A stretch of 64,000 nt of DNA. It comes from Rufibacter roseolus. Its GTDB lineage: Bacteria > Bacteroidota > Bacteroidia > Cytophagales > Hymenobacteraceae. Below the pieces are notes generated by a model. That model was not told the origin of the DNA. It saw nothing but the letters and a program-made list of their open reading frames with translations, and ran no database searches. The stretch lies in assembly GCF_017916365.1 (NCBI RefSeq), contig NZ_JAFMSU010000002.1, positions 1,426,001 to 1,490,000 of the forward strand, given 5' to 3'. Below are positions 36,746-51,966 of the stretch, piece by piece (position 1 is the stretch's first letter; every line of letters begins with the position of its first letter). The position numbers and the translations under genes were made by a program.

Positions 36746-36861
36746 GGAGAAATGATTTTAAATGTTCGTTAAAAGATTGGGTATGATTACAAGAGCATAG
36801 GAGTTTCCTTTTCTGCCTTGTTTGCGTTTTGCTAGCCAGGTCTTGCCCTATTTTTCAATGA

Positions 36862-38220: not shown

Positions 38221-38300
38221 GGGGTGTAGTACTCCTTTACTAGTGATTTGAAAATGTACCGTTGTTGAGGACCAGCGTATTTCTTCCCAGGTGTCTTTTG

Positions 38301-39731
<1,431 letters not shown>

Positions 39732-39802
39732 GCATAACAGCCTTGGGCATGAGGCGTGCCAACCCGGCGGCCGAAGCATGACCTATGCACCATGATGGAG
39801 GT
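39732..39802 (-). repeat. attC-like site 1, degenerate, distal end of array
   Basis: It begins GCATAAC and keeps the GGC...GGCC core, but the central part has drifted (CCCGGCGGCC). The outer box GATGGAGGT matches the expected complement of its cassette start (GTTGGTGGT) in 7 of 9 bases. Confidence 0.75.
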
Positions 39803-40680
39803 CAGTTGATTTTCTTATTTACTCTTTGAATTGACCTGGTTTCATAATAGAGGTAATTCTCAGTTGGATTCTTTTCAAGCTTCCTGATAAAATACTTTAG
39901 GAAGTATTCCTCTAGCTTGGCAGGTTTCAACATCTTCATCCTACCCAAATCATCTTGGTCCACACTGTTGAATAGTCCACCTGTGACAAAGGCCGTGGTC
40001 ACGCTGTCAAGCTTTATAGCCGTTCTGTCTGGGCCGAGCCTATAGATTTCTGCTGCTGCCTTCACATCTGCTTTCAAGTCTGGGATGTCAAAGTGAAGGT
40101 AATACAGAGAGTCTCCGCTATTACCCAGAAATGAGACAGTGTTGGTGTTAGCAGGGCTAAGTCTATTGAACACTTCCTCTTCGCTAAGGGTGAGAATGAA
40201 TAATTTGTCGGTATCTACCAGTATTTCTACTTCCTGCCTTTTTAGAGTGGTTGCGCAAAATGAGAATAAAGAAATAAGCGCGAGAGTAGCGGTAGTTAAA
40301 GGTTTCCTGTGGTTCTCATAACCACAGTTCCTATTCATGAAATAGCAGTAAGACAGGGGAAGTATAAATATTGCCAGCAAGTCTGTATAGTCGACAGTAC
40401 GGTTAGCAGCCACCCCTAAACTGTTGCAAAACTCAATCAATGGCTGAGAGATGGGTGATTTCCAGATAAAGAATACTACTGCTGTCGCCAGGTATATTGC
40501 GTTCTTTGATTGAGGTCTAACTGCGGAGAAAAAGTAGGGGAATATGAACAGCCCTGCAAAGTCTGACAGCTTGCCCGTTAGCTCATTGTGGAACTCATAC
40601 TTTAAGTAGAAGTCATTTACCAAAAGAATGACTAACCCCAAAAAGAACAACGGAGCTTTTATTTTCCCTATGTCAGACAT
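39802..40680 (-). CDS. Cassette 17: membrane protein with LTGKLSDFAGL motif
   Basis: This 292-residue protein is predicted to sit in the inner membrane, with about four N-terminal helices (APLFFLGLVILLVNDFYLK; LFIFPYFFSAV; AIYLATAVVFFIWK; TTATLALISLFSFCATTL), then a soluble C-terminal domain. The motif ELTGKLSDFAGLF defines a widespread family without known function, as far as I recall. It is the largest protein of a membrane type in the array and sits at its distal end. The cassette start and its degenerate attC are listed separately. Confidence 0.8.
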   Translation of the reverse strand: MSDIGKIKAPLFFLGLVILLVNDFYLKYEFHNELTGKLSDFAGLFIFPYFFSAVRPQSKNAIYLATAVVFFIWKSPISQPLIEFCNSLGVAANRTVDYTDLLAIFILPLSYCYFMNRNCGYENHRKPLTTATLALISLFSFCATTLKRQEVEILVDTDKLFILTLSEEEVFNRLSPANTNTVSFLGNSGDSLYYLHFDIPDLKADVKAAAEIYRLGPDRTAIKLDSVTTAFVTGGLFNSVDQDDLGRMKMLKPAKLEEYFLKYFIRKLEKNPTENYLYYETRSIQRVNKKIN

Positions 40681-40705
40681 TCATTGCATCCTTTCAATTA
40701 CAACT

Positions 40706-40778
40706 ACCACCAACGACATGGCTAAATAACAGGCGAGGCCGTCGGCCGTAGCTGCCGTTTACACCATGTTGTGTGTAG
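40706..40778 (-). repeat. attC-like site 2
   Basis: Outer boxes ACCACCAAC and GTTGTGTG flank a hairpin with core GGCCGTCGGCC. The right box is complementary to CACACAAC of site 3 across the cassette. Confidence 0.9.
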
Positions 40779-40784
40779 TATTTT

Positions 40785-41333
40785 TTATGTATGGTTATTG
40801 TAGGCCAAGTGAATTTTGTCTACCCATTCCTTACCCCACACGCATAATTCATAAGTCCAAACATATTCAGTCTTACCGTTTTCAGTCCATTTCTCTTCAT
40901 TGCTGTCAACTGAGAGCCCGTTCTTGAAATCTTTCTGAAATATATAGAATGAACTACTGTCTAGTTCTATTATCTCTTCCAGTTTATCTATGGCAAAAGA
41001 GCTGTCTAATCGTAGGAAAAATGAGTTAAAGAATCTTGCCGTGGCAAAATAGGTATCAGGGTCGCTTAGGTCTGGCTTTAAGCAAGAGAAGATTTCTCTA
41101 AATTTCTCAACCTACGTGAACGGGAATGTAAATCTGAATGTCGGTGCCTGAGATTCTCTGTAATGTACCTTGTCCGTTGCTGCATTTGTTTCTTCAAGCG
41201 TCAACACGGCAGCTTCAGGAATTACTTCTCCAATAATATTAGATAAAGCCATAATAAAGTCACCAAGAAAGTGTCTGCGTTCTTGCTGCTGTCTTAAATA
41301 TCCAATTCTTTCCTGACGGCTTGTTTCTTTCAT
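40785..41333 (-). pseudogene. Cassette 16: hypothetical gene split by an in-frame TAG
   Basis: An ATG at 41333 opens a frame (MKETSRQERIGYLRQQQERR) of 73 codons that meets TAG at 41112-41114. The same frame then runs on without a break for 108 more codons (VEKFREIFSCLKPDLSDPDTYF ... ELCVWGKEWVDKIHLAY, read in parts) to TAA at 40785-40787, six bases short of the attC box. The pattern is one nonsense mutation in a gene of about 182 codons, or possible read-through. I do not recognise the family. The second half alone has no good start codon. Confidence 0.8.
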
Positions 41334-41343
41334 ATCAATTTTT

Positions 41344-41414
41344 CACACAACGGACTAGTATAAAAGACGGAGAGGCCGTCGGTCGCTGCTGGCGTTTACA
41401 CGTTGTTGTGGCAA
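41344..41414 (-). repeat. attC-like site 3
   Basis: Outer boxes CACACAAC and GTTGTGGCAA flank a hairpin; the right box is a perfect 10-base complement of TTGCCACAAC at site 4. Confidence 0.93.
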
Positions 41415-41415
41415 A

Positions 41416-42321
41416 TTATTTTTGCTCATTATATAAGCTGTAGTATTTATTAGAATTTTCGAAATCTCCTTTCAATTTGTAGACAGAGGCAAGGTTCTTT
41501 AATTCTAATTTTATAAAAGAGGAATCTTTGAAATGTGAGATTTTAAACTCTGCTGCCTTTTTGAAGATGCTGATTGCACTTTCATAGTCTTTTTTCATTA
41601 CATAAGTAGCTGCCAAGAGGCTAAGACCATTGCCATATCCCTCTTTCTTATTGTTCCTACTAAAGTAGTTAGCTGCAAACAGAGCGTTTTCCGTTGTTGA
41701 GTCAAGCTTGCCGAGGTATAAATTCAGAAGAACCCTAGAGGAAACGGCATCAACAATCAAAGAAGAGTCTCCACTAGATTCTCCAAACCTGTGAATCTCA
41801 TCAATGAGTCCTGTTGCCTTTTCATATTCGAGATTAATTATTGATAAGTCGCAAAGGATGCTCTTTGCCTCATAAAAATCAGTACTATCTATGTCAGGTA
41901 ATGCCGTGTATTCTTGCAAGGCTCTGTTAATAGCAACAAGAGCAGAATCTTTCCTTCCAGATTCCCTGTAGATGCGGGCAAGAACTTTGTGTGTGTGTGC
42001 AGTCGTAATGCCCTTGGTTTTGTACATTGACAGAGCCAATTGAAAATAATGCTCTGCATTTCCATAATCCTTCATGTCCATGTAGACGTAGCCAAGCCTA
42101 TAATATGACTCTGCTAGAAACATGCTCTCAGGGAATCCCCTTTCACCAAAACTCACCTGCTCTTTGGCAATGGCTAAAGCTTTATTATAATCTTCGTTTT
42201 TAGAATATGTCCAATATTCCTCCGTTTTCATTGACCATTTGCTTTCAGTTGGCTCCCCAACAGGTTTACTACAACCAAAAGATGCCACTAAAACAAAAAG
42301 GGAAACGAAAATTCTTTTCAT
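41416..42321 (-). CDS. Cassette 15: TPR-repeat lipoprotein
   Basis: From the ATG at 42321 the 301-residue protein reads MKRIFVSLFVLVASFGCSKP, a lipoprotein signal with Cys17. The frame extends 14 codons into the attC, but the lipobox fixes this start. Tetratricopeptide-like repeats follow (AESYYRLGYVYMDMKDYGNAEHYFQLAL; HKVLARIYRESGRKDSALVAINRALQ; SLLAATYVMKKDYESAISIFKKA, each read as one repeat). It may form a protein-binding scaffold at the membrane. Partner unknown. Confidence 0.85.
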   Translation of the reverse strand: MKRIFVSLFVLVASFGCSKPVGEPTESKWSMKTEEYWTYSKNEDYNKALAIAKEQVSFGERGFPESMFLAESYYRLGYVYMDMKDYGNAEHYFQLALSMYKTKGITTAHTHKVLARIYRESGRKDSALVAINRALQEYTALPDIDSTDFYEAKSILCDLSIINLEYEKATGLIDEIHRFGESSGDSSLIVDAVSSRVLLNLYLGKLDSTTENALFAANYFSRNNKKEGYGNGLSLLAATYVMKKDYESAISIFKKAAEFKISHFKDSSFIKLELKNLASVYKLKGDFENSNKYYSLYNEQK

Positions 42322-42330
42322 ATTATTAAT

Positions 42331-42403
42331 TTGCCACAACGGTGTTGTACATAAGGTGAGCAAGGCGTAGCAGAAGCTTTGCTTATATACTGGGTTATGT
42401 AGT
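42331..42403 (-). repeat. attC-like site 4
   Basis: Outer boxes TTGCCACAAC and GTTATGTAGT flank a more divergent hairpin (ATAAGGTGAGCAAGGCG region). The right box pairs with CATAAC of site 5 over 6 bases. Confidence 0.85.
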
Positions 42404-42406
42404 ATT

Positions 42407-43105
42407 TTATTTCAGCCTTATCCTATTGACCACAGCACTTTTCAAGTTTGGAAACTCTAAGATGAAGGTATAGTCACTTAATCTATCACATGTGTCAATA
42501 TGCACTTTTTCTATTGTGTCTGCATACCTTTCCAAACCTCTTAAGCTTTTGAGATTTCTGGACCTATCTATGGTAATTTCACTCAAGCCTTTCATACCGT
42601 TCAATTTGGTTATATCATTAACGTTTGTCCAGTTGAGACCAAGTTTCTTAGCGTACCTCGGAAAGCTGAAGTCTGAGAAGGATTGATCTTTTGGCTTATG
42701 ATGCCACAGGTCAAATTTCTCTACACTTTCACAAGTATCTAAGCTTCTATCCTTCTGATGCCACTCAAGAACTAGGGTATTGAGGGAGGGGAAATGAGAA
42801 AAATCAATCATTGGTCTCTTTCCCATTACCCCGAAATATTCAGCATTTTCAAGATTATACAAACCCGTTACATCATTCACATTGATGTTCCAGAACCAAA
42901 AGAACTTTGCATCTCTGAAGTCTTTCACGAAATCGAAGTCTGCATTTTTGAACCCAAACGTTGAATTGCCAAAAATCCCATTAAAATTTTCCTGTTGGTA
43001 TTTAGAAATGCATTTCTCCAGCTTATCAGTAACTACTCCTAATGATTTATAGCCTCCCTGTTTCTCTTTATCAATGTAAACATCGTCTTCGGGTACAATA
43101 ACCAT
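42407..43105 (-). CDS. Cassette 14: leucine-rich-repeat-like protein
   Basis: The 232-residue protein has no signal peptide. Irregular LRR-like units are visible: LYNLENAEYFGVMGKRPMID, FPSLNTLVLEWHQKDRSL, LNGMKGLSEITIDRSRNLKSL and FPNLKSAVVNRIRL. Such solenoids usually bind proteins. It starts MVIVPEDDVYIDKE and is complete. Function unknown. Confidence 0.8.
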   Translation of the reverse strand: MVIVPEDDVYIDKEKQGGYKSLGVVTDKLEKCISKYQQENFNGIFGNSTFGFKNADFDFVKDFRDAKFFWFWNINVNDVTGLYNLENAEYFGVMGKRPMIDFSHFPSLNTLVLEWHQKDRSLDTCESVEKFDLWHHKPKDQSFSDFSFPRYAKKLGLNWTNVNDITKLNGMKGLSEITIDRSRNLKSLRGLERYADTIEKVHIDTCDRLSDYTFILEFPNLKSAVVNRIRLK

Positions 43106-43130
43106 TGTTTGTTTCTATAATTTAAAATGA

Positions 43131-43202
43131 GGCATAACTGTCTAGTGCATGAGGCGTGCAAGGCCGTTGGCCGTAGCATGGCTTATGCACCTTGTTATGC
43201 CA
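43131..43202 (-). repeat. attC-like site 5
   Basis: GGCATAAC and GTTATGCC are mutual complements here, and the hairpin GTGCATGAGGC...TTATGCAC surrounds the core. The right box matches site 6 across the cassette. Confidence 0.93.
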
Positions 43203-43674
43203 CGTTTTTTATTGCGCTTATTCTGATTATCCTAGTTAGCCTATTAAATACTTTATTTGAAATTAATCTAAAATTTAATTCCACGATAACAAACCTCACA
43301 AACAAGATTCCTAATAATACAGGAAGAATAAGTTCAATAGGTTTTTCTACTTCTTTTCGTAAAAGTGTCAACAAAATGGAAAGGATTGGAAGCAACATCA
43401 AAATTAAGGACAGTATTTTGTATGTAAGATGAAGTCTTATTTCAATTAAACCCACTTTTCCTTGAAAGTCACCACTTAGAACACAAAATGCTCCATACTT
43501 TGCAGATGAGATTACCTTAAACCTATTTTCCTTTATCTGCCCAATAAATGCCTTATCCGTCGACTCCAGAACAAGTAAGTCGGTAGGCTTTGTATTTTGT
43601 TGTAGATGATTTAAAGCTATTGTAGAATCGTCAGGTAACTCAATTTTGTAAACCCGTGAAGGAAATATATTCAT
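43195..43674 (-). CDS. Cassette 13: small membrane protein
   Basis: This 159-residue protein has a soluble N-terminal part (MNIFPSRVYKIELPDDSTIALNHL) and two predicted helices near residues 86-105 (ILSLILMLLPILSILLTLL) and 115-132 (LILPVLLGILFVRFVIV). The stop codon lies inside the attC-like site, a common arrangement in this array. No family recognised. Confidence 0.75.
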   Translation of the reverse strand: MNIFPSRVYKIELPDDSTIALNHLQQNTKPTDLLVLESTDKAFIGQIKENRFKVISSAKYGAFCVLSGDFQGKVGLIEIRLHLTYKILSLILMLLPILSILLTLLRKEVEKPIELILPVLLGILFVRFVIVELNFRLISNKVFNRLTRIIRISAIKNVA

Positions 43675-43688
43675 ATTATTTAAAATGA

Positions 43689-43759
43689 GGCATAACGTCT
43701 TGGCTAAACGACGGCGACAGCCGTCGGCTGGAGATGACGTTTAGCTCTTGTTGTATGGC
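43689..43759 (-). repeat. attC-like site 6
   Basis: Outer boxes GGCATAAC and GTTGTATGGC; hairpin GGCTAAACGACGGC...GACGTTTAGC. The right box is a perfect 10-base complement of GCCATACAAC at site 7. Confidence 0.95.
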
Positions 43760-43860
43760 GTTGTTCTTCTGCGCTTGCCACGAGCTTTATCTGCTTTTGA
43801 CCTGTTTTCAGAAAAAGGGCCGCTAATCACCTTCCCGAAGTTCAGTCAATTTTTATCCGT

Positions 43861-43900
43861 ACGTTTTTGGCCTTATTTCAGAAAAACAGGCCGAAAACGT
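43861..43900. terminator. Hairpin inside cassette 12
   Basis: ACGTTTTTGGCCT and AGGCCGAAAACGT pair over 13 positions (one G:U) around a loop containing TTTCAGAAAAA. The same loop motif recurs outside the array near gene ends, so this looks like a host-type terminator captured with the gene. Confidence 0.65.
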
Positions 43901-43940
43901 TAATGCGAGAAGTTAGATTATAGTCAGCCGTACAGTTCTT

Positions 43941-44204
43941 TTATTTAATTTCTTTCAAGTCCGTCTTCAAAATCCAAAGTGAGTTTGGCTTCTCATTGTG
44001 GCATTCAAGCCCGTGGCTATTTACATCAATGTCAAATTGGAATAAAACCCTGCTTCCATTCGGGAAGTTTAAGTCTTCTGCGTAATCAGTGACTGTCCCT
44101 TCCTCTTCGAGCAACTTCCAATAGTTTTCATTGTCGTCGCAATCTTCCTCTGGGATTCTTGTACCGTTGAAAGATTTAAGAACGTATTTTTTGCCTTTTT
44201 CCAT
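43941..44204 (-). CDS. Cassette 12: small conserved hypothetical protein
   Basis: From the ATG at 44204 the protein of 87 residues starts MEKGKKYVLKSFNGTRIPEE and contains ENYWKLLEEEGTVTDY, GSRVLFQFD and GLECHNEKPNSLWIL. It looks like a small beta-rich (SH3-like) domain; I recall similar short proteins but no function. An upstream ATG at 44219 is possible; longer starts would read through the attC and are unlikely. The gene is followed by 180 non-coding bases with a hairpin before its attC, unusual for this array. Confidence 0.75.
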   Translation of the reverse strand: MEKGKKYVLKSFNGTRIPEEDCDDNENYWKLLEEEGTVTDYAEDLNFPNGSRVLFQFDIDVNSHGLECHNEKPNSLWILKTDLKEIK

Positions 44205-44214
44205 TTCTATCAAT

Positions 44215-44287
44215 GCCATACAACGGATAGTATAAACGACGGCGAAGGCCGTCGGCCTTTGCTGACTTTTATACAATGTTGTACCAA
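44215..44287 (-). repeat. attC-like site 7
   Basis: Outer boxes GCCATACAAC and GTTGTACCAA; core GGCCGTCGGCC. The right box is a perfect complement of TTGGTACAAC at site 8. Confidence 0.95.
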
Positions 44288-44296
44288 GTGTTTCTT

Positions 44297-44821
44297 TTAG
44301 CTTATCCAAGGAGTTTCATAAAACGATTCTACATTGTTTGATTCATCAAAAAAGAATAAATAAATCACACCTGACGATCCTTCATCTCCTAACTTGCTAT
44401 AAGTCACATGGAGTAGAATGGTATTATTATCTAGTTTGGAAATGATGGTATTTTTGTGGCGGGACTTAGGCAAACAATCCAATTTTAATTTGGAACCAGA
44501 ATTAGTAGGCTTGTCTTCAAAAGATTTGAAAATTTCACCAATCTTGTCTTTGTCTTGGTTCCACAACTCTTCAAGCTTTACGTTCAGCTTCTTGGCTGTA
44601 TATATGTTAGCAATCGGGCCATCAAAGCCCCAACCGTCTAAAATCCGATTGTCGAACTTAAATTCAAAGCTTTTTAGGTTTTCATTGTGCTTTAGGTGCC
44701 ATATTGCCGCTCTAACCTGTTGGCAGGTTATTTCTTCGCTATGTTTTTTGGCAGCGACTTTCTGTCCAAAGTTTAATAAGGGAGTTAGGAGTAGAAGCAA
44801 AATGATAAAAGGCTTTTTCAT
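44297..44821 (-). CDS. Cassette 11: exported hypothetical protein
   Basis: The 174-residue protein has a clear signal peptide (MKKPFIILLLLLTPLLNFGQ). The mature part is charged with two Cys (ITCQQV, LDCLPK) that might form a disulfide, and ends ESNNVESFYETPWIS. I do not recognise it. Confidence 0.78.
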   Translation of the reverse strand: MKKPFIILLLLLTPLLNFGQKVAAKKHSEEITCQQVRAAIWHLKHNENLKSFEFKFDNRILDGWGFDGPIANIYTAKKLNVKLEELWNQDKDKIGEIFKSFEDKPTNSGSKLKLDCLPKSRHKNTIISKLDNNTILLHVTYSKLGDEGSSGVIYLFFFDESNNVESFYETPWIS

Positions 44822-44830
44822 TTTTTACAT

Positions 44831-44903
44831 TTGGTACAACGGACTAGTATAAACGACGGCGAAGGCCGTCGGCCGAGGTGACGTTTATGCCATGTTAGGC
44901 CAC
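44831..44903 (-). repeat. attC-like site 8
   Basis: Outer boxes TTGGTACAAC and GTTAGGCCAC; hairpin with GGCCGTCGGCC. The right box is a perfect complement of GTGGCCTAAC at site 9. Confidence 0.95.
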
Positions 44904-45379
44904 GTTGTTTTTATTTTGAATTCTTCCATTCTTGAAACCATGTTACCTAAGCCAATCAATATGCCATGATGATTTTCACAAACCAACCATTCATATTTTT
45001 TTGAGATAATGTAATATTCGAAATAAGGTAATTCTGCGATAACTTTCTGAATCGGCTTGATGTATCCTTGGAATAACCAAAACTTACTTGGGTCGTGGTA
45101 AGAGTCACACGCTACAAACCAGACCTTTTCTTCATAGTCAATTAGCTGGTCAAGAAATTCAAAGGCATTGTCTTGTTCAAAGCTAATTTGGAATTGAGTT
45201 CCTTTAAAGCTTTCCCACCACCAGTTAAATTTAGTATTAGAATTCTCTTTTTTTACGAAGGCCCGTTCAATTTTCTGCATGATTGCAGGCCATGCATAAA
45301 TTCCGACAGCTTCAAAGTCGTCAGATATAATACCTAAAGCATTTGCTATTTTTTGAGCATTTTCTTTGAATCCTGTCAT
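44885..45379 (-). CDS. Cassette 10: DUF6756-like cytoplasmic protein
   Basis: The 164-residue protein has no signal peptide. Aromatic-rich WWWESFKGTQFQISF and KVWFVACDSYHDPSKFWLFQGYI with EWLVCENHHGILIGLG resemble DUF6756-type proteins, whose role is unknown. The stop codon lies in the attC-like hairpin, so the last few residues are encoded by the recombination site. Confidence 0.75.
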   Translation of the reverse strand: MTGFKENAQKIANALGIISDDFEAVGIYAWPAIMQKIERAFVKKENSNTKFNWWWESFKGTQFQISFEQDNAFEFLDQLIDYEEKVWFVACDSYHDPSKFWLFQGYIKPIQKVIAELPYFEYYIISKKYEWLVCENHHGILIGLGNMVSRMEEFKIKTTWPNMA

Positions 45380-45387
45380 TTTTCAAT

Positions 45388-45460
45388 GTGGCCTAACGTA
45401 CTTGTGTAAACGACGGCAAGGCCGTCGGCCGATGCTGGCGTTTACACGTGGTTAGGTAAA
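45388..45460 (-). repeat. attC-like site 9
   Basis: Outer boxes GTGGCCTAAC and GTTAGGTAAA; hairpin GTGTAAACGACGGC...GGCGTTTACAC. The right box is a perfect complement of TTTACCTAAC at site 10. Confidence 0.95.
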
Positions 45461-45469
45461 GTTGTTTTT

Positions 45470-45838
45470 CTATTTTACAAGCATTCTCACTTTAGCCTCT
45501 AATTCTTTACTATTATAGAAGTCCATACATTTCATAATATCTAATCTTTCATCATGCTTGCTTGAATACTTTTTCTTACTGAATTCGAGTGCCATGCTGT
45601 CGATTGTTTCCATAGCGTCAATACCGAAATTCCCTGTTTCAAAATATCCTGCGGCACTTCCTTCATTTTCCCAATAGTCCGACTTTGGATTAGATTTATA
45701 TAGGCATGAGCAAAAAGCCACCCTCTTTAATTTTTCTCTACCCTCGTTTAATTTTCGTCGCTCCTTAATTGTAAACCCAGCTACAAAGAGTAATACAATT
45801 GCAAAGAAGATAAATGTCAGCTTTTTCATAATCTTCAA
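45470..45838 (-). CDS. Cassette 9: small membrane-anchored or exported protein
   Basis: The protein of 122 residues begins MKIMKKLTFIFFAIVLLFVAGF, one helix or signal peptide; MKK three codons on is an equally good start. The rest has FCSCLYKSNPKSDYW and DIMKCMDFYNS. The Cys pattern faintly recalls Tai4-type immunity proteins, which I would not rely on. Confidence 0.72.
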   Translation of the reverse strand: MKIMKKLTFIFFAIVLLFVAGFTIKERRKLNEGREKLKRVAFCSCLYKSNPKSDYWENEGSAAGYFETGNFGIDAMETIDSMALEFSKKKYSSKHDERLDIMKCMDFYNSKELEAKVRMLVK

Positions 45839-45839
45839 T

Positions 45840-45912
45840 TTTACCTAACGTACTTGTGTAAACGACGGCGAGGCCGTCGGCCGAAGCTGACGTTTACACG
45901 TTGTTCTGTGTT
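45840..45912 (-). repeat. attC-like site 10
   Basis: Outer boxes TTTACCTAAC and GTTCTGTGTT; hairpin GTGTAAACG/CGTTTACAC with core GGCCGTCGGCC. The right box pairs with ACACAGAAC at site 11. Confidence 0.95.
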
Positions 45913-46352
45913 GTTTTTGTTTCTTTTACTAATTTAATTAACTTTTCTATTTCAGATTTGTGTGTTTTAGGCCAGTTAATTTCTTCATACGATTTGTCGA
46001 TAAACTTTAGAATAGCGCGGTAAATCGGTAGAATCAACGAGTTAAAGCTTCCAGTTAGAACAAAGACCTTTCTTCTGTCGGATATATCAGAATTAGCAAA
46101 GTAAATACCGATACTATATTCGTTACCGATTCTTTCAAATTCAAAATAGTAGCCTTGGGGTTCTAGATGCCACCAAACTTCTGTTTTTATTCCTTTAATA
46201 ACATTCCTCAAAGAAGTAATCAACTGGTCAACCGGATTTGCTGGAACGTCCGAAGCTTCAAATTGTAAATCAAAGTTTTCAAAAGCCAAATTCACTGGAA
46301 GCCAGCCATGTTCAGGTGCTCCTAATTCTATTTTCAGCTTTTCTCTATTCAT
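45894..46352 (-). CDS. Cassette 8: hypothetical cytoplasmic protein
   Basis: The 152-residue protein starts MNREKLKIELGAPEHGWLPV and includes LQFEASDVPANPVDQLITSL, WWHLEPQGYYFEFER and INWPKTHKSEIEKL. There is no signal peptide. Its last residues (TTQNNV) and stop are encoded in the attC-like site. No family assigned. Confidence 0.75.
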   Translation of the reverse strand: MNREKLKIELGAPEHGWLPVNLAFENFDLQFEASDVPANPVDQLITSLRNVIKGIKTEVWWHLEPQGYYFEFERIGNEYSIGIYFANSDISDRRKVFVLTGSFNSLILPIYRAILKFIDKSYEEINWPKTHKSEIEKLIKLVKETKTTQNNV

Positions 46353-46362
46353 AATTTAAATT

Positions 46363-46432
46363 ACACAGAACGGCTTGGCTAAACGGCGGCGAGGCCGTCG
46401 GCCGATGCTGCCGTTTAGCTGTTGTTATGCGC
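46363..46432 (-). repeat. attC-like site 11
   Basis: Outer boxes ACACAGAAC and GTTATGCGC; hairpin GGCTAAACGGCGGC...GCCGTTTAGC. The right box is a perfect complement of GCGCATAAC at site 12. Confidence 0.95.
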
Positions 46433-46434
46433 TG

Positions 46435-46848
46435 TTATTCTTTCTTTTTCAAGCTCCCGAAGTAAGTAAACTTAAGGGTACATGCCCTTGGGTCAACAGG
46501 AATCAAATCTATTTTTCCTGCAGAACTTTTGCTTGGCTTTATAACTACTTTAGAACCAATAGAGAATTCGTTTGGAGAGTCGGCTCCTTTCTTTGTATTA
46601 CACAAATTTAAGACTCTTACTGTGTCTCCAGCCTCTGTTCTAACAAGACTTACTAAGGCTGTAGAAATCCGTCCACATAATACAGTTGGCTGTTCATTGA
46701 ACAAGACTGTTCCAACTATATCCTTCTCTAGTTTATTATACTTCCAGTCCGATTGACAGGATGTTTTCTCTTTACTCAGACTTTTACCTTGTCCGCCTAC
46801 TGCATTAAAGTGCAAAGCAGCAATCAGAATGAAATAAGGGATTCCCAT
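46435..46848 (-). CDS. Cassette 7: exported hypothetical protein
   Basis: The 137-residue protein starts MGIPYFILIAALHFNAVGGQG, a likely signal peptide. Later parts are TVLFNEQPTVLCGRISTALVSL, VRVLNLCNTKK and DPRACTLKFTYFGSLKKKE. Three Cys may form a disulfide. Unknown function. Confidence 0.72.
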   Translation of the reverse strand: MGIPYFILIAALHFNAVGGQGKSLSKEKTSCQSDWKYNKLEKDIVGTVLFNEQPTVLCGRISTALVSLVRTEAGDTVRVLNLCNTKKGADSPNEFSIGSKVVIKPSKSSAGKIDLIPVDPRACTLKFTYFGSLKKKE

Positions 46849-46872
46849 TAGTCCGTCTTTAATATTTTAATT

Positions 46873-46945
46873 GCGCATAACGGCTGGGCTAAACGACGGG
46901 CGAGGCCGTCGGCCGAAGTCTGATGTTTAGGTGTTGTTAGGGGAA
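46873..46945 (-). repeat. attC-like site 12
   Basis: Outer boxes GCGCATAAC and GTTAGGGG; hairpin GGCTAAACGACGGGCGAGGCC with GGCCGAAG and GATGTTTAG. The right box matches CCCCTAAC of site 13. Confidence 0.93.
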
Positions 46946-46954
46946 GGTTTTTCT

Positions 46955-47395
46955 TTATTCTTTTGGGATAATTGCTCCATACCAGTCGCATATTTCAATA
47001 TTGCTTACCGCCTTTGTAGCTGAAACTTTAAACTCTATCAACGTATGGTCTTTACAATTTACTGAAAGACCACAGGGTACCATCTTAGTGTAACCTCCGC
47101 TCGCTTTAGATTCATTTTTCCCATCACTGTCAGTAACAGTCTTTTCTACGGTGTATGCATAAGCAACATAATTACCTACAGGCACTTTGTTGAATTGAAA
47201 TGTTTTCTTGTTCTCTTTTATGAAAGTTTTGTAAACCTTCTTAGTGGTTGTGTTTTTTATGTATACAAACATCTGAGGGATGTAATGTCCTGGATAACAT
47301 AGAGTTCCTTTGATAGTCCCAAGTTTATTCCCCTTCTCAAATTTGGGCTTAGAATTGAAGATTAGTAAAACTGCAAGTATTAAAGTCAGTTTCAT
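46955..47395 (-). CDS. Cassette 6: exported protein with carboxypeptidase-regulatory-like domain
   Basis: The 146-residue protein has a signal peptide (MKLTLILAVLLIFNS) and a beta-sandwich pattern, GTIKGTLCYPGHYIPQMFVY then FQFNKVPVGNYVAYAYTVE, typical of carboxypeptidase-regulatory/SpaA-like folds. It may bind a ligand or protein at the envelope. Function unknown. Confidence 0.75.
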   Translation of the reverse strand: MKLTLILAVLLIFNSKPKFEKGNKLGTIKGTLCYPGHYIPQMFVYIKNTTTKKVYKTFIKENKKTFQFNKVPVGNYVAYAYTVEKTVTDSDGKNESKASGGYTKMVPCGLSVNCKDHTLIEFKVSATKAVSNIEICDWYGAIIPKE

Positions 47396-47432
47396 AGATG
47401 ATTTCTTAATTTTATATTAATAGTATAACTTA

Positions 47433-47505
47433 CCCCTAACGATTAGTATAAAAAACGTGCAAGGCCGTCGGCCGTAGCATGGTTTTTATACAGTGTTGGC
47501 GGGAG
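47433..47505 (-). repeat. attC-like site 13
   Basis: Outer boxes CCCCTAAC and GTTGGCGG; the hairpin uses TATAAAAAACGTGC and GCATGGTTTTTATA arms around AAGGCCGTCGGCCGT. The right box matches CCGCCAAC at site 14. Confidence 0.93.
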
Positions 47506-48021
47506 TTATTTTTCATTTTTGCTTGCAAGAGAATAATAGTCTATCACTTCTGTATTGGGCCTTTTGTACCCGAATGAAATAAAGAGCTCCTTAAATTTCT
47601 TAAAGTCAAAGTAGTTAAACTGGATGAGTTCATAACTTTTCCCCTCCCTTGTGTAAATCACGATGGAGTCCCAATTGGTTCTACCTAATTTTTTACTGGA
47701 CGGGAAGATGCTTGATATATCTGCTTTAGCAAGGAAATATTTCCTTTGAAGTATTAAGTTTCGGATTACAATTCGCTCGTCGGAAATTCTTATCCATAGG
47801 CACTCTGTTAGAACACCTTTTATCATTTGATAGGCCCCTAGAGAAAATAACCAAATAATGAAGAATGTATAGAAAACAAAAACTGCATCCTCTGAAATAC
47901 CCTCCCATTCTTTTTTTAATATCCAAGAAACCATGAGAATCACCATTCCAACTGAAAAAATGAGGAAGGCTATTCTAAGGATTGGAATCAGAAAATTGAA
48001 TTTAAGAGTATATTCTTTCAT
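47506..48021 (-). CDS. Cassette 5: membrane protein with PH-like domain
   Basis: This 171-residue protein has two helices near residues 11-33 (LRIAFLIFSVGMVILMVSW) and 47-67 (VFVFYTFFIIWLFSLGAYQM), then a soluble part with LWIRISDERIVIRNLILQRKY and WDSIVIYTREGKSYELIQF, which looks like a bacterial PH-type domain as in YcxB or STM3941-like proteins. Function unknown. Confidence 0.78.
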   Translation of the reverse strand: MKEYTLKFNFLIPILRIAFLIFSVGMVILMVSWILKKEWEGISEDAVFVFYTFFIIWLFSLGAYQMIKGVLTECLWIRISDERIVIRNLILQRKYFLAKADISSIFPSSKKLGRTNWDSIVIYTREGKSYELIQFNYFDFKKFKELFISFGYKRPNTEVIDYYSLASKNEK

Positions 48022-48034
48022 TAAGTTTTAATTA

Positions 48035-48106
48035 CCGCCAACGGACTTGGCTAAACGGCGGGCGAGGCCGTCGGCCGATGCTGGCGTTTAGCTGCTGTTA
48101 GCCGTT
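48035..48106 (-). repeat. attC-like site 14
   Basis: Outer boxes CCGCCAAC and GTTAGCCGTT; hairpin GGCTAAACGGCGGGC...GGCGTTTAGC. The right box is a perfect complement of AACGGCTAAC at site 15. Confidence 0.95.
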
Positions 48107-48139
48107 TGTGCATTCTTCTTTCTCAAAATCCTTCCCTAA

Positions 48140-48559
48140 TTAGTGACCTCTTAGTTGATGCAACAATGAAGACAAATCTTCATTCTCTTTGATAAACTCT
48201 AATAAATAAGATTCTGTGATAGTGAATTGCTCATTATTTTTTGTTTTAGTTCTAAGAACCTGTTCGTTATTTTCAGTTATCTGAAAACTATGAATTATCC
48301 TGTTTCTTTTACCGATTATTGATGAGAATAATACTGCAATTTTTGTGTCGGAATTTTTAGTTATGGTTTCTTTTACGGGTTGGGACAACTCTCCAGAAGT
48401 TCTATCTACTAGTTCATACCAATTATAAGTAGAGTTATCTATTCTCAATATATTTTCGATTACGAATTGATTATTGGAGTTAAACACACAGATTGCAGAG
48501 CCTAGCAATTCTCTATACCTTTTTGAAGGCAATGCTTGTCGGCTATATTCTTCGTACAT
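48140..48559 (-). CDS. Cassette 4: hypothetical protein with HEPN-like RxxxxH motif
   Basis: The 139-residue cytoplasmic protein starts MYEEYSRQALPSKRYRELLG and contains AICVFNSNNQFVIENILRI and GKRNRIIHSFQI. The RNRIIH stretch fits the R-x4-H motif of HEPN ribonucleases, although a short motif in a small protein is weak proof. I recall similar VFNSNN...ENILR proteins as conserved hypotheticals. A role in RNA cleavage or defence is speculation. Confidence 0.75.
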   Translation of the reverse strand: MYEEYSRQALPSKRYRELLGSAICVFNSNNQFVIENILRIDNSTYNWYELVDRTSGELSQPVKETITKNSDTKIAVLFSSIIGKRNRIIHSFQITENNEQVLRTKTKNNEQFTITESYLLEFIKENEDLSSLLHQLRGH

Positions 48560-48605
48560 ATTAATCTTCTTTTTTGATTTTACTTTTGGTGAGTTATGAT
48601 TGCAT

Positions 48606-48680
48606 AACGGCTAACGTACTTGGCTAAACGGCGGCGGAGGCCGTCGGCCGATGCTGGCGTTTAGCTGTTGTTAGTGCTTA
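48606..48680 (-). repeat. attC-like site 15
   Basis: Outer boxes AACGGCTAAC and GTTAGTGCT; hairpin GGCTAAACGGCGGCGG...GGCGTTTAGC. The right box pairs with AGCACTAAC at site 16. Confidence 0.95.
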
Positions 48681-49273
48681 GTTATTTTTACAGTTGGTGG
48701 CAAAAACTTAACACCTCCAAAACCTTCTTTCCAATTAACTGAGTCCGAATTATAGTTTCTGTTGTTCATTTTTGCTTCAAGGACCGCTAATTCCTCTTCG
48801 GTTGTTCTTCTGATGGTGTAGTATCTTAATTTTTTCTGTTTAATTACTTTATGAATTGTTTCAAAGTGTTCGTTGTAAATCGAGTCGGTTGGTGATGAGA
48901 TAGAAACAAATACCTTTTTACCAATGCTACTCGTGTCTTGCACTGTTTCATGTACAAAATCCTCAATAGTTTCATCTGCCAGAACGATAAGGTCGGTTGG
49001 CTTTAAGCCAATAAATTCAGGTTTAGAAAAGTCTACTCCATTTCCACATGCCCATAGTTGCATATTATGGCCGTGGTAATATGTTTTCCCAGCATTAGAG
49101 ATAATAAAGTTATGATGTCCGTAAAATAAGACTGGCGGTGGTGGTGGAGTTGAGCCTGTCGAATCAACAATAGGTTTTTTTATTATGTGATACACGACTT
49201 TCTCTTCTTTAATCGCTTTGCCGCATGTAGACAAACCGAGGGCAAAAAGAAAAAAAGTTATGTATCGCTTCAT
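48671..49273 (-). CDS. Cassette 3: lipoprotein, unknown function
   Basis: The 200-residue protein starts MKRYITFFLFALGLSTCGKA, with lipobox LSTC and lipidated Cys17. It has a Pro run (STPPPPPVLFYGHHNF), LWACGNGVDFSKPEF and a charged C-terminal half (TEEELAVLEAKMNN). The stop codon falls within the attC-like site. No family recognised. Confidence 0.78.
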   Translation of the reverse strand: MKRYITFFLFALGLSTCGKAIKEEKVVYHIIKKPIVDSTGSTPPPPPVLFYGHHNFIISNAGKTYYHGHNMQLWACGNGVDFSKPEFIGLKPTDLIVLADETIEDFVHETVQDTSSIGKKVFVSISSPTDSIYNEHFETIHKVIKQKKLRYYTIRRTTEEELAVLEAKMNNRNYNSDSVNWKEGFGGVKFLPPTVKITKH

Positions 49274-49286
49274 TTTAATTTATAAT

Positions 49287-49360
49287 TAGCACTAACGTAT
49301 TGGGCTAAACGACGGCGAAGGCCGTCGGCCGAGATGGCGTTTAGCTCTTGTTGGCGGGAG
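49287..49360 (-). repeat. attC-like site 16
   Basis: Outer boxes AGCACTAAC and GTTGGCGGGAG; hairpin GGCTAAACGACGGC...GGCGTTTAGC. The right box matches CCGCCAAC at site 17. Confidence 0.95.
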
Positions 49361-49371
49361 TGTTTCTTTTC

Positions 49372-49773
49372 TTATGCTTTTGCTCCTTGCCCAAGCCCAA
49401 AGATTCTTTTTTCTCCAATGATTATTTCCCAAGGTTCATATCCGCTTGAGTCTGTCAATATTTTAAAGGTTAAATTATTTCCGAATTCAAGGTACAAGTC
49501 GCCTGTATTTAGGTTTCTTTCTATTGAGTTCAGGCTACTGTTAAGGAGTGACTTTCTGATTTCGGTTTTTAAATCTATCGGGGTTCTATGCCCGTAAATT
49601 TGCCCGTTGTCCTTTGATGTCCATTTTATTCTTCTATTTTCTAATAGTCTCCAGAAGCTTTCAATTTGAACTCTCAAGTCATTTTCAAACACAAGAAGCC
49701 ACATCCCGCTTTCACTAAAGAAGATGAATTCAGTAAGAGCAAAGCTTCCCTGTAATAACGTTTCCTTATTCAT
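49372..49773 (-). CDS. Cassette 2: DUF6188-like hypothetical protein
   Basis: The 133-residue cytoplasmic protein starts MNKETLLQGSFALTEFIFF. It contains LYLEFGNNLTFKILTDSSGY followed by EPWEIIIGEKRIFG; the SGYE-W pattern recalls DUF6188-type proteins, with low certainty. It has no membrane segment. Confidence 0.72.
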   Translation of the reverse strand: MNKETLLQGSFALTEFIFFSESGMWLLVFENDLRVQIESFWRLLENRRIKWTSKDNGQIYGHRTPIDLKTEIRKSLLNSSLNSIERNLNTGDLYLEFGNNLTFKILTDSSGYEPWEIIIGEKRIFGLGQGAKA

Positions 49774-49784
49774 ATTTTACATTG

Positions 49785-49920
49785 CCGCCAACGGTCTCGG
49801 CTATGCGGTCGGCTGGGAGACTGAAACGCAGTTTCATGTCGGACGGCAGACCGCTTGCAGGCGGCGATGTAACGTCGGCCTGAATAAAACCCAGCTGCCG
49901 TATAGCTATTGTTAGGGTGT
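49785..49920 (-). repeat. attC-like site 17, enlarged
   Basis: Outer boxes CCGCCAAC and GTTAGGGTGT are intact, but the middle is about 136 bases rather than 72, with internal pairing such as GCGGTCGGCTGGG with CCCAGCTGCCG and GAAAC/GTTTC. It is the attC of the first cassette. Long attC sites are known in classical integrons. Confidence 0.88.
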
Positions 49921-49946
49921 GTTTTTCTTCTTTTACTCCTTTTCCA

Positions 49947-50159
49947 CTAACTGATTTCTTTTGTTAGTTGAGCAAATTTTCTTTTCAAGAATATTACAAT
50001 CAGGATTAATCCTGAAAGTACTAGCAACGATAGCCAAATAGAATCGGTCGTTTTTTCTGGAATTTTATGTCCAGAAGCCATAGCTAACATCCAGAAGAAC
50101 AAGTCCGCAATAGTTAATAGGATTAGAATTGTCAAAATTATGTTTAGAAGAATCTTCAT
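49947..50159 (-). CDS. Cassette 1: 70-residue two-helix membrane protein
   Basis: The protein begins MKILLNIILTILILLTIADL, has a short polar loop (ASGHKIPEKTTDS) and a second helix IWLSLLVLSGLILIVIFL with a basic tail. It is in the first cassette, nearest the integrase, so by analogy with integrons the most recently inserted. Function unknown. Confidence 0.75.
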   Translation of the reverse strand: MKILLNIILTILILLTIADLFFWMLAMASGHKIPEKTTDSIWLSLLVLSGLILIVIFLKRKFAQLTKEIS

Positions 50160-50212
50160 GAGAGACTTTTCATGTTGTCAGTTTTATGTTACTGTTTTTT
50201 TTTAATTTAAAT

Positions 50213-50374
50213 ACACCCTAACTACTGTGTATAAGGAGCAATTCCGGTTATTGGCACTTTGGATGGAGTCATGGATACTACTTCCCGCCGTCCCATCCTA
50301 CCAAATTTCGACCCTAAATCCTTTTGCAAAATACAACTTTCCACAATATACCTGCTGTTGAATATAGTAATTGC
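50213..50374 (-). other. attI-like junction and integrase 3' spacer
   Basis: ACACCCTAAC at 50213-50222 is the perfect complement of the box GTTAGGGTGT at 49911. On the minus strand the first cassette therefore starts G^TTAGGGTGT here, joined to non-cassette sequence. The 150 bases between this point and the integrase stop have no gene and no attC-type hairpin. GAGCAATT (50237) and AATTGCTC (50369) form a weak inverted pair that might bind the recombinase. Confidence 0.7.
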
Positions 50375-51844
50375 TCACAGATTGTCAAGCGGGCTTTTGA
50401 TCCCCTCAAGGCCGTAGCTGGTGATATGGGTATAAATCTCGGTGGTTTTGCTGCTTTGGTGACCTAGAAGCGCCTGAATGTAGCGCAGATCAGTTCCTTG
50501 CTCCAGCAGGTGCGTAGCGAAGGAGTGACGAAGCGAGTGAGGCGTCACCTTCCGGCCCACCCCCGACTTCTCCAGGCAACCATTGAACACGTGGCGGATG
50601 CTGTCGGCGGTGTACTGGCCGCCTTGCTGCCCCTCAAAGAGCCATATTTTGGGCCTGTATTTTCTGTAATACGCCCTGAGGCTCTCCAACAGCCTCTTGG
50701 AGAGCAGTGTGGTACGGTCCTTCTTGCCCTTACCGCCCCTGATGAGCAGCAGGTTCCGCTCAGATTGCACGTCTGTGACCTTAAGGTTAATGACCTCACC
50801 AATCCTAAGTCCCCCGGCGTAGAGCAGTTGCAGCAGACACCGGTGTTTCAGATTCTCAGTAGCAGAAAGAATCCGGGCTACTTCCTCCTTGCTCAGCACC
50901 GTGGGCAGCCGGTCCGGCTTTTCAGGGCGCTCTACCCCGTTTAACTCCAGGCTTTGGTGACCCAAAACCCGCTGGTAATAGAACTTGACCGCGTTAATGC
51001 TCTGGTTCACAAAAGAAAAAGAGTACGCCTGGCTCTGTACCATCTGCCGGTGGTATTGATTGATCTCCTCTGCCGTAAAAGTGTCTATTTTTCTCATGCC
51101 AGAATCGCGGTGGGCGTTAAGAAAACGCACCAGCAGGGAGTGGTAAGTCCGGATGGTGTTCAGGGAATAGTTCAGCAACTGCAGCTTCTCCAGGTAGGTG
51201 AGCGGGCAGCTTAGGTAATCACCGTCCTTGTGGTAAGACTGCTCCCAGAGCCTCCGCAGCACCGACATGTCTTTTACTTTCACTGTGGCGCTAAGCCATA
51301 CGAGGGCCACGCCTTGCAGTCTGTCCAGCAAGGCATGTATTCCCTGGGAGCCGGTATCCAGAGAGAAGCACATTTCCTTGGGTAACCACCTACAGGCACC
51401 ACTCTCCTTGAGCCTGGCGTAAAGCTCTCTATTATAAGTGAAACCTATATAAGTGAAACCTACTTGCAGCACCTCTTTACCTTCGTGCAACAGGGGTTGG
51501 AGTCGCACTACCGGCAAATTGGGCAACTTCCGCAGCGGTTCGGCCTGCCTGTTTTCCCCTGCCACTACGGTCCCCAGGTCTGGCCTAAGTCGCCGGGGCC
51601 GGTTCAGGTAACGAGTGTCTACCTGGGCAATCCCTTGGAAGGTCTGGTGCAGCCGCTCAATAGTGTGCTGGGTGCGGTGAGCCACGTAGCACTTATACGT
51701 TTTGCTGTACCTGGCCACCCTGGTCTCCTTCAATCTCCTGCTGATGCGTTTGTCCGGCTTGTGCCAGAGGCGGATGAATTGCTTTCCCCCGTGTTCCAGG
51801 GGATTGAGGTACAGGACAGGGATGGTTACAACTGGCTGATGCAT
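50375..51844 (-). CDS. Tyrosine recombinase, candidate integron-type integrase
   Basis: The 489-residue protein has a complete tyrosine recombinase catalytic set: Arg347 (GGLRIGEV), Lys372 (GGKGKKDR), His436 and Arg439 (HSLRHSF), His462 (LLGHQSS) and Tyr471 (EIYTH). A SAM-like core-binding domain spans about 215-300. Stretches such as RLPTVLSKEEVARIL and the tail GIKSPLDNL resemble IntI integrases, but the segment between the Lys and the HxxR box is short, with no IntI-specific insertion visible. Residues 8-72 and 113-180 look like two copies of a small domain (HGGKQFIRLWHKP / HEGKEVLQVGFTY) seen singly in many Bacteroidota recombinases. The gene reads toward the cassette array, the reverse of classical integrons. 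Confidence 0.92.
   Translation of the reverse strand: MHQPVVTIPVLYLNPLEHGGKQFIRLWHKPDKRISRRLKETRVARYSKTYKCYVAHRTQHTIERLHQTFQGIAQVDTRYLNRPRRLRPDLGTVVAGENRQAEPLRKLPNLPVVRLQPLLHEGKEVLQVGFTYIGFTYNRELYARLKESGACRWLPKEMCFSLDTGSQGIHALLDRLQGVALVWLSATVKVKDMSVLRRLWEQSYHKDGDYLSCPLTYLEKLQLLNYSLNTIRTYHSLLVRFLNAHRDSGMRKIDTFTAEEINQYHRQMVQSQAYSFSFVNQSINAVKFYYQRVLGHQSLELNGVERPEKPDRLPTVLSKEEVARILSATENLKHRCLLQLLYAGGLRIGEVINLKVTDVQSERNLLLIRGGKGKKDRTTLLSKRLLESLRAYYRKYRPKIWLFEGQQGGQYTADSIRHVFNGCLEKSGVGRKVTPHSLRHSFATHLLEQGTDLRYIQALLGHQSSKTTEIYTHITSYGLEGIKSPLDNL
51434..51463. repeat. 15-base tandem duplication inside the integrase gene
   Basis: ATAAGTGAAACCTAT is followed directly by ATAAGTGAAACCTAC, giving the five-residue duplication GFTYIGFTYN at residues 129-138. 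The frame is kept. Confidence 0.85.
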
Positions 51845-51911
51845 ACTTGTTTGGCTGAAAACACCAAAATAGCCTCTTACCTGGCCTTAGCCGTAAACTA
51901 CGCGTATATGT

Positions 51912-51956
51912 CCGTATGTATCCGGATGATACGGATATAACCGTATGTATTCGGAT
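51912..51956. promoter_or_regulatory. Direct repeats in integrase upstream region
   Basis: CCGTATGTATCCGGAT (51912) and CCGTATGTATTCGGAT (51941) are 29 bases apart with one mismatch; CCGTAT/ATACGG also forms an inverted pair. They lie between the divergent integrase and zinc-ribbon genes and may bind a regulator. Confidence 0.6.
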
Positions 51957-51966
51957 AAGAACGGGT

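Follow-up and report, generated by a model that had tools for sequence, protein, structure and literature searches.

The window, by which we mean the whole 64,000-nt stretch of Rufibacter roseolus DNA that was analysed, carries at 39732-52272 an array of 17 cassettes, an attI-like site and an insert-less tyrosine recombinase. Judging from the sequence, these three together very probably form a working integron, and in our reading the system belongs to a lineage of integrons that lack the I2 domain. The array layout, the folding of its sites and the exchange of its cassettes are all consistent with the integron interpretation put forward in an earlier sequence-only reading of this DNA.

Results

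Sites and cassette ends

The earlier reading had described 17 hairpin sites alternating with minus-strand genes between 39732 and 50222, and all 17 were found again. A covariance model was trained on s2-s16, with s1 and s17 kept out of the training set, and it also recovered s1 (40 bits) and s17 (38 bits). End matching and the covariance model place the attC-like sites s2-s16 on the plus strand at 40708-40774, 41345-41411, 42334-42400, 43132-43200, 43690-43756, 44218-44284, 44834-44900, 45391-45457, 45843-45909, 46365-46430, 46875-46942, 47434-47501, 48036-48103, 48609-48676 and 49290-49356. The attC-like s17 (49786-49917, plus strand), a long form nearest attI, was located by end matching, folding and the covariance model, and the degenerate s1 (39732-39795, plus strand), at the distal end, by the covariance model. 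An outer AAC...GTT frame, ascribed to all sites in the earlier reading, is present in 16 of the 17; in s1 (39736) the GTT end is gone. The AAC-to-GTT span is 58-61 nt in the 15 sites s2-s16 and 124 nt in s17. The core said to be common to most sites occurs exactly, as GGCCGTCGGCC, in 11 of the 17, the other sites carrying variants, and the 17 cassettes measure 430-989 bp between AAC positions, in agreement with the sizes first given. Rfam at gathering scores matched only a tRNA in the whole window.

Within a cassette the two ends match over a mean of 9.2 nt, and the two ends of one site match over 4.1 nt. Summed cassette-end matching amounted to 147 nt, against a permuted mean of 66 and a permuted maximum of 107; 0 of 20,000 permutations reached as high. 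Better matching across the cassette than across the site is the signature of crossover at G/TT by circular cassettes.

The sites are imperfect palindromes with AAC/GTT boxes that fold on the bottom strand, as attC sites do; a fold unlike that of attC had been named as evidence against an integron, and the plus strand gives attC-like hairpins. Changes on both sides of the stem were found in 12 of 24 pairs in the window, compared with 7.5 +/- 1.2 in shuffles. For 136 sites from 13 loci we counted 320 double-change cells versus 95 when shuffled (0 of 500 shuffles as high). Paired cells of the folded plus strand contained 225 G.T and 15 A.C, and the bottom (plus) strand gave the stabler fold in 126 of the 136 sites, with 4 equal. 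Stem covariation and the excess of G.T on one strand suggest that selection acts on a single strand in its folded form. In the predicted main stem of the window's site type, a symmetric mismatch was the only irregularity, and no single-base bulge column, as expected of extrahelical bases, was filled in more than 1 of the 136 sites.

The attI-like site and the recombinase

The recombinase (489 aa, 50375-51844, minus strand; Pfam PF00589, 8.9e-41) and the attI next to the array had gone unremarked in the earlier reading. Conservation in relatives defines attI at 50220-50262 on the minus strand, a platform ending at G/TT with AAC at 50220-50222 on the plus strand. In 40 distinct rows, of which 3 were misanchored, its counterparts are conserved up to the GTT crossover and variable beyond it. 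The first cassette begins at the attI crossover, and attI lies beside the recombinase gene with cassettes inserted there.

Predicted models of the recombinase show two N-terminal b-b-a-b-b-a repeats (residues ~10-76 and 112-184) followed by core-binding and catalytic domains, and the protein ends in SPLDNL. Pfam gave no match on the N-terminal 215 aa. An insert of ~42 residues that is present in IntI is missing, and the protein lacks the additional (I2) domain of IntI. The spacing from GKGxKxR to HxLRHSF is 58 residues in the window and 58-62 in the insert-less rows (40/40), compared with 100 in IntI (14/14) and 60-66 in Xer (12/12). The recombinase scored 206 bits against the IntI model TIGR02249, under the cut-off of 265, and it also fell below the cut-offs of the curated Xer models NF040815 (210 bits against 220), TIGR02224 (190 against 335) and TIGR02225 (187 against 330). 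In our tree, for which the bootstrap had not settled and outgroup sampling was limited, IntI and the insert-less recombinases formed one clade against 12 Xer rows (support 100/97). The AU test gave p 0.62 for the insert-less rows as a single clade, and sister and nested placements both fit. The N-terminal extension was considered as an essential stand-in for I2 and rejected, since a 284-aa recombinase without it (locus L116) has a chain of 11.

Besides 50375-51844, the window genome encodes two intact tyrosine recombinases and one fragment, and a search of it with the IntI model returned no match at E 1e-50. A small divergent companion gene (118 aa, 51916-52272, plus strand), zinc-ribbon-like with a sub-threshold DUF2116 match, is conserved adjoining recombinases of the window's family.

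Cassette genes and their exchange

The cassette genes are minus-strand ORFs at 39802-40680, 41112-41333, 41416-42363 (TPR by Pfam), 42407-43105, 43195-43674, 43941-44309, 44297-44821, 44885-45379 (DUF6756), 45470-45838 (weakly Tai4-like), 45894-46352, 46435-46848, 46955-47395, 47506-48021, 48140-48559, 48671-49273, 49372-49773 and 49947-50159. For 41416-42363 and 43941-44309 the listed TTG starts fall outside their own cassette borders, and in-frame ATGs at 42321 and at 44204 (or 44219) bring each gene within one cassette. The distance between cassette start and start codon is 8-31 nt in 12 of 17 genes as listed and in 14 of 17 with these two ATGs, which leaves scant room for promoters of the cassettes' own. 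At E 0.01, 12 of the 17 cassette proteins had no Pfam match; only the TPR and DUF6756 proteins passed the curated cut-off (2/17), and PADLOC, applied to 10 of the 17, returned one weak DUF3644 match.

The comparisons show cassettes as discrete units that have passed from array to array and from host to host. Among the matches listed, the cassette at 40712-41351 (minus strand) is a 640-nt block with 92.8% identity to one in a genome of another genus (G004). This block runs from AAC to AAC, which are the predicted crossover borders. It adjoins an attI-like sequence in G004, where the recombinase frame is shortened to 338 aa, and is second from the distal end in the window. Duplicated units within arrays were also among the matches listed. 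Of 49 shared blocks, only 16 began and ended at AAC/GTT, where controls gave a mean of 5.2 and at most 14; among the 25 blocks shared between different loci, 7 did so. Identical cassette order and content in relatives would have told against an integron; the sister arrays compared share almost no cassette proteins with the window. When the genus arrays that adjoin a recombinase (L081-L086) were compared with the window, the sole protein match at E 1e-5 was of 28% identity. The GH43, SASA and GH2 genes flanking the array in the window turned up in none of the sister loci, where the sequence upstream of the recombinase extends for only 1-2 kb.

Distribution across genomes

Sites occurred in all 66 recombinase-bearing non-Hymenobacter genomes of Hymenobacteraceae versus 11 of 138 other genomes (Fisher p 2e-42, uncorrected for kinship); these 11 have sites and no matched recombinase. 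Relatives of the recombinase were present in 148 of 295 sampled Bacteroidia genomes, and comparable arrays adjoin related recombinases in further families of the class. Outside the family, a phased cassette start at the attI position, sought 20-220 nt past the recombinase stop, was found at 34 of 57 loci, which were not fully deduplicated, versus 156 of 1,790 control bins (9%; p 6e-22). Within Hymenobacteraceae the corresponding counts were 14 of 25 loci versus 117 of 962 control bins. On 5' flanks the count was 0 of 15.

The chain test was entered with 132 loci, and 50 of them were left out, 39 because the 3' flank was shorter than 3 kb and 11 because no recombinase frame was recognised. In its strict form it was negative at 10 of 25 Hymenobacteraceae loci and 37 of 57 others, and of the 20 other positives at least two (L178 and L189) look false by eye. 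A looser form was discarded because long chains arose in AT-rich shuffles too.

Discussion

The window system resembles a sedentary chromosomal integron (IntI, TIGR02249) in having attI next to the gene for the integrase, unidirectional single-gene cassettes, gene starts near the cassette border, phase-matched cassette ends, AAC...GTT attC hairpins with a bottom-strand preference, and integrase-less site clusters scattered elsewhere in the genome. It differs in that the recombinase is without the ~42-residue insert that includes I2, the window-type sites are without predicted extrahelical bases, matched ends often reach 8-10 nt, the boxes are looser than GTTRRRY, and many insert-less members have a long N-terminal extension. 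Treponema chromosomal integrons carry intI according to the available part of their description (PMC3607928), whereas the window enzyme fails the IntI model. Unlike XerA, XerC and XerD (NF040815, TIGR02224, TIGR02225), the window enzyme has an IntI-like SPLD tail, adjoins cassette arrays and clusters with IntI in the tree. The 'integron-like' tyrosine recombinases of Smyshlyaev 2021 (PMC8138268) are described, in the part of the article available, with an insertion called essential for integron function; that part mentions no insert-less cassette arrays of the kind found in the window. Among open PMC integron papers, a set with no preprints and few subscription journals, we found no description of an insert-less integron lineage. 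The suggestion of a poorly described Cytophagales lineage was too mild: the recombinase is without the domain by which integron integrases are defined and detected, and the system extends beyond Cytophagales.

In the mechanism we propose, the recombinase would bind the folded bottom (plus) strand of a cassette attC, crossover would take place at G/TT between this folded attC and double-stranded attI, and replication would resolve the junction. New cassettes would enter beside attI, and older ones would be displaced from it or scattered to other places in the genome. Recognition may come from the hairpin itself, which has a long stem free of bulges, a conserved G.T pair and a spacer that is asymmetric (5-6/3 nt), and the N-terminal repeats may help. 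Such hairpin-based recognition would replace the I2 helix and the extrahelical bases used by IntI. What counts against a working integron is that I2, missing here, is reported necessary for cassette capture in IntI; the same source, as far as its text was available, describes the domain as reported in no other protein and as key to single-strand recombination (PMC7790495). Since arrays adjoin insert-less recombinases in several Bacteroidia families, it is likely that integrons without the insert occur and that they function.

It is possible, but unlikely, that the system is convergent and arose from a Xer-like recombinase independently of IntI integrons. The unsettled choice between sister and nested placement, the limited outgroup sampling and the unsettled bootstrap leave it some room, but IntI and the insert-less recombinases group against all the Xer rows, and the two systems have in common the GTT crossover box and the attI/attC logic.

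If the same recombinase used ordinary double-stranded sites in two Xer-like strand exchanges, the hairpins would be inverted binding sites only. The Xer-like spacing, the missing I2 and the sites' lack of predicted single extrahelical bases fit such a scheme, I2 and extrahelical bases being the pair that the literature, in the parts available, ties to single-strand recombination. Double-strand exchange at inverted repeats would favour neither strand, however, and the compensatory stem changes with their G.T excess on one strand make this scheme improbable.

A fossil array, or one served in trans by Xer or by an IntI elsewhere while the adjoining recombinase has another job, would explain the 11 genomes with sites and no matched recombinase and the broken recombinase copies that occur. 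We regard it as very improbable, because sites accompany the recombinase in 66 of 66 genomes and a conserved attI follows its stop codon; an IntI acting in trans was rejected, as the window genome has no IntI-model match at E 1e-50. It is extremely unlikely that the hairpins act as terminators between genes, or as REP-like repeats, and take no part in gene exchange: although they are stable folds between same-strand genes, end matching spans the gene and not the hairpin, and an entire cassette with AAC borders is found again in another genus.

The integron reading bears on how such systems are counted. Integron surveys use the I2 domain to separate IntI, as the available text of PMC9024848 states, and probably overlooked many Bacteroidia integrons for that reason; from IntegronFinder 2 this text names one new complete integron for Bacteroidetes proper, that of Salinibacter, whereas recombinase relatives are in half of the Bacteroidia genomes sampled here (148/295). 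Two recombinase copies lie on plasmids, one of which was typed as mobilizable, and a plasmid of Rufibacter tibetensis with that typing carries an array, so this route of gene exchange may itself be mobile. On balance we lean towards the view that integrons predate IntI, and that this widespread, unannotated Bacteroidia lineage represents living intermediates whose integrases never gained I2 and whose attC sites are without extrahelical bases, single-strand cassette recombination having come first and I2 later. If so, the lineage would supply intermediates that the field has lacked.

Cassette units of the array

The window spans positions 1426001-1490000 of contig C2 in a 5.5 Mb genome (G000), and between 39732 and 50222 seventeen hairpin sites (s1, distal, to s17, nearest attI) occur in turn with minus-strand genes, as the sequence-only reading had claimed. 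An AAC...GTT frame, claimed for all repeats, was found in s2 to s17 and not in s1, which has lost its right end. The span from AAC to GTT was 58-61 nt in s2 to s16 and 124 nt in s17. In an integron cassette, the 5' end and the cassette's own attC derive from one circle and so match each other, while an attC junction within the array joins halves that originate from different cassettes. The right end of each site matched the left end of the following site over a mean of 9.2 nt (16 cassettes), while the two ends of a single site matched each other over a mean of only 4.1 nt. The summed cassette-end match of 147 nt compared with a permuted mean of 66 nt and maximum of 107 nt (0 of 20,000 permutations as high), upholding the proposed integron layout of gene plus attC in one direction. 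Most matches extended beyond the seven-base box, reaching 8-10 nt and in one case 14 nt. Two cassettes were weak, one with a 6 nt match and one (site 5) matching equally both ways.

Among the matches listed, s17 (49781-49946) has a 78% identical counterpart at 13507-13672 of the sister array L081, so that long and short attC forms coexist. One cassette (44885-45379) encodes a DUF6756 protein, as does a gene in the Rufibacter tibetensis plasmid array (L082/L286; 28% match), and the protein of another (45470-45838) matches the T6SS amidase immunity protein Tai4 below threshold (E 1.8e-5). On either side of the array (35783-39152 and 52534-54972) lie carbohydrate-active genes; they include a Pfam SASA esterase, and other frames there presumably resemble GH43 and GH2 enzymes.

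Folding and strand bias of the sites

Compensatory changes on both sides of the stem were present in 12 of 24 pairs among 15 window sites. Across 136 sites from 13 loci, double-change cells numbered 320 against 95 after shuffling; this alignment was fitted to the covariance model and is thus biased towards structure, with shuffles and slides serving as controls. The plus strand, which is the bottom strand with respect to the cassette genes, gave the more stable fold in 16 of 17 window sites (the exception being s3). In the larger set the bottom strand was more stable in 126 of 136 sites and equal in 4, so that attC-like folding of the bottom strand, named beforehand as a point on which the integron claim could fall, was confirmed. 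Paired positions of the bottom strand held 225 G.T against 15 A.C, indicating that wobble pairing is tolerated on just one of the two strands, and one G.T pair was conserved in 132 of 136 sites. In the predicted fold, each main-stem bulge column was occupied in at most 1 of 136 sites. The hairpin carries a symmetric mismatch, and its spacer is asymmetric, measuring 5-6 nt on one side against 3 nt opposite. Longer sites, of about 120-124 nt and with an enlarged apical part, were seen in other Bacteroidia families (L111, L113, L167, L169, L193, L244, L260), and the window's covariance model found few or no sites in L111 and L113.

Linkage of sites and recombinase

A covariance model built from 15 window sites had matches in 77 of 204 family genomes, and the recombinase (50375-51844, minus strand) in 83 of 204 (E 1e-40). 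With 17 Hymenobacter genomes excluded, their matches being core-only at 43-48%, sites were present in 66 of 66 recombinase genomes, some of which have divergent or broken copies only, versus 11 of 138 others. The association has p = 2e-42, a value that overstates independence because both traits vary by genus. The window's own genome contains 49 distinct sites at E <=0.001 (opposite-strand double matches merged by hand); the window array holds 16 of them, and the other 33 are dispersed on three contigs. The dispersed clusters (C1:1013957-1027305, C2:469886-492626, C2:124688-127311, C3:142025-155115 and others) have no recombinase copy and resemble clusters of attC lacking an integrase.

The attI platform and its neighbourhood

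The closest named relatives of the recombinase are from Rufibacter (77-79% identity), which places the window in Hymenobacteraceae (Cytophagales). Read onward from the stop codon, recombinase loci have in common a platform of roughly 40 bases that closes with TAG|TT; in the window this is attI (50220-50262, minus strand). The attI consensus, from 40 distinct rows, was strong as far as TAG|TT and then dropped, each genome having its own first cassette; the profile is blurred by L007, L072 and L099, which were anchored at the wrong GTT, the true attI site of L007 being without its GTT. In six loci from several species (L011, L024, L025, L027, L028, L098) the first unit past attI starts alike (CCGTCATTGGGATT / CCGTGATTG...), no gene being evident at that start, which suggests a shared ORF-less cassette or insertion. 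The platform of L012, L014, L065 and L098 includes an imperfect palindrome whose halves, by eye, appear to covary between species.

A small zinc-ribbon-like gene (51916-52272, plus strand; weak DUF2116 match, E 0.0044) is divergent to the recombinase. Such a gene was present at all 30 Hymenobacteraceae loci whose flank was long enough (loci not deduplicated) and at 10 of 60 others, and it is possibly a regulator or directionality factor.

Cassette exchange and plasmid-borne copies

The cassette proteins of the window were searched against up to 69 loci (E 1e-5). Cassette content differed from that of the same-genus arrays beside a recombinase (L081-L086), where a single protein match passed this threshold, at 28% identity (L082); the rest of the genus also gave one, of 27 residues at 67% (L042). 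Among the matches listed, the cassette at 40712-41351, second from the distal end in the window, recurs in a genome of another genus (G004) at 92.8% over 640 nt. The shared block has AAC at both limits, and its G004 copy adjoins an attI-like stretch, some 180 nt away from the match to the recombinase. Duplicated units were seen within other arrays. Both ends lay <=5 nt from AAC or GTT in 16 of 49 shared blocks, versus a mean of 5.2 and a maximum of 14 when the ends were moved; for blocks shared between loci, both ends were at AAC or GTT in 7 of 25. A noncoding stretch at 43693-43899 (behind s6 from 43757) resembles 563-783, 6246-6463 and 7808-8016 of L085 at 70-76%, among the matches listed, and is perhaps a cassette 3' region shared with three L085 cassettes.

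In Rufibacter tibetensis the recombinase is encoded on a plasmid of 235 kb that was typed as mobilizable; most of its neighbours there are annotated as hypothetical proteins, and an integron is not mentioned. By the model, seven sites stand beside it (L082; G145 C2), though the strict chain at this locus has a length of only 2. A Pontibacter kalidii copy is likewise plasmid-borne.

Arrays beyond Hymenobacteraceae

Of 390 genomes sampled from the order, 180 have a related recombinase, as do 148 of 295 sampled from the class (overlapping samples). A chain test for phase-matched cassette rows, independent of the site model and applied to loci with >=3 kb of 3' flank, was positive at 15 of the 25 loci from Hymenobacteraceae, the window among them, and at 20 of the 57 from elsewhere, of which L178 and L189 look false by eye; among 5' flanks, 0 of 15 testable ones were positive. 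The tested loci include a few from outside the class or duplicating one genome (e.g. L096, L242). Clear arrays in other families, their sites measuring about 60 to 124 nt, include L116, L117, L110, L113, L167 and L169, as well as Tangfeifania diversioriginum (L244, chain of 4) and Flavobacterium saccharophilum (L260, chain of 8). A phased cassette start 20-220 nt past the stop codon was found at 34 of 57 other loci versus 156 of 1,790 downstream control bins (binomial p 6e-22), and at 14 of 25 family loci versus 117 of 962 bins (binomial p 2e-7).

Relation to classical integrons

In a tree of 66 rows, for which the bootstrap had not settled, 14 classical integron integrases (IntI) and 40 recombinases without the IntI-specific insert, which includes the I2 domain, formed one clade against 12 rows of other tyrosine recombinases (Xer), with support 100/97, and IntI was monophyletic at 100/100. 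Constraining the insert-less rows together was not rejected (AU p 0.62), a value compatible with IntI as either sister to the insert-less group or nested in it. Of 247 genomes from the phylum, 70 have a classical IntI that passes its cut-off; 72 have an IntI match, and G551 alone among these is of the window's class. Insert-less relatives were also seen in other classes (L218, L224, L228). In this sample, these counts make IntI nearly confined to other classes and insert-less recombinases common in the window's class.

Earlier work describes I2 as necessary, as unique and as the step that gave rise to integron integrases (PMC7790495, PMC4792948), and integron detection depends on the extra domain (PMC9024848). 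Published listings also give integrons in general terms for both Bacteroidota and the Bacteroidetes/Chlorobi group, the latter by IntI. Insert-less relatives are already known as proteins; we found no account of their cassette arrays in searches of the open PMC integron literature.

At the level of sequence, our comparisons establish a cassette unit, a crossover box (G|TT), an attI, linkage between sites and recombinase, and a strand bias. The neighbouring insert-less recombinase would perform cassette recombination, probably acting on a single, folded bottom strand, and the junction may be resolved by replication, as in IntI integrons. Cassettes would be transcribed from the recombinase side, because most cassette starts leave scant promoter room. 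The window has the same cassette and attI logic as an IntI integron, whereas its recombinase is without the IntI-defining domain; judged from its sequence, the system behaves like an integron, yet fails the IntI domain test.
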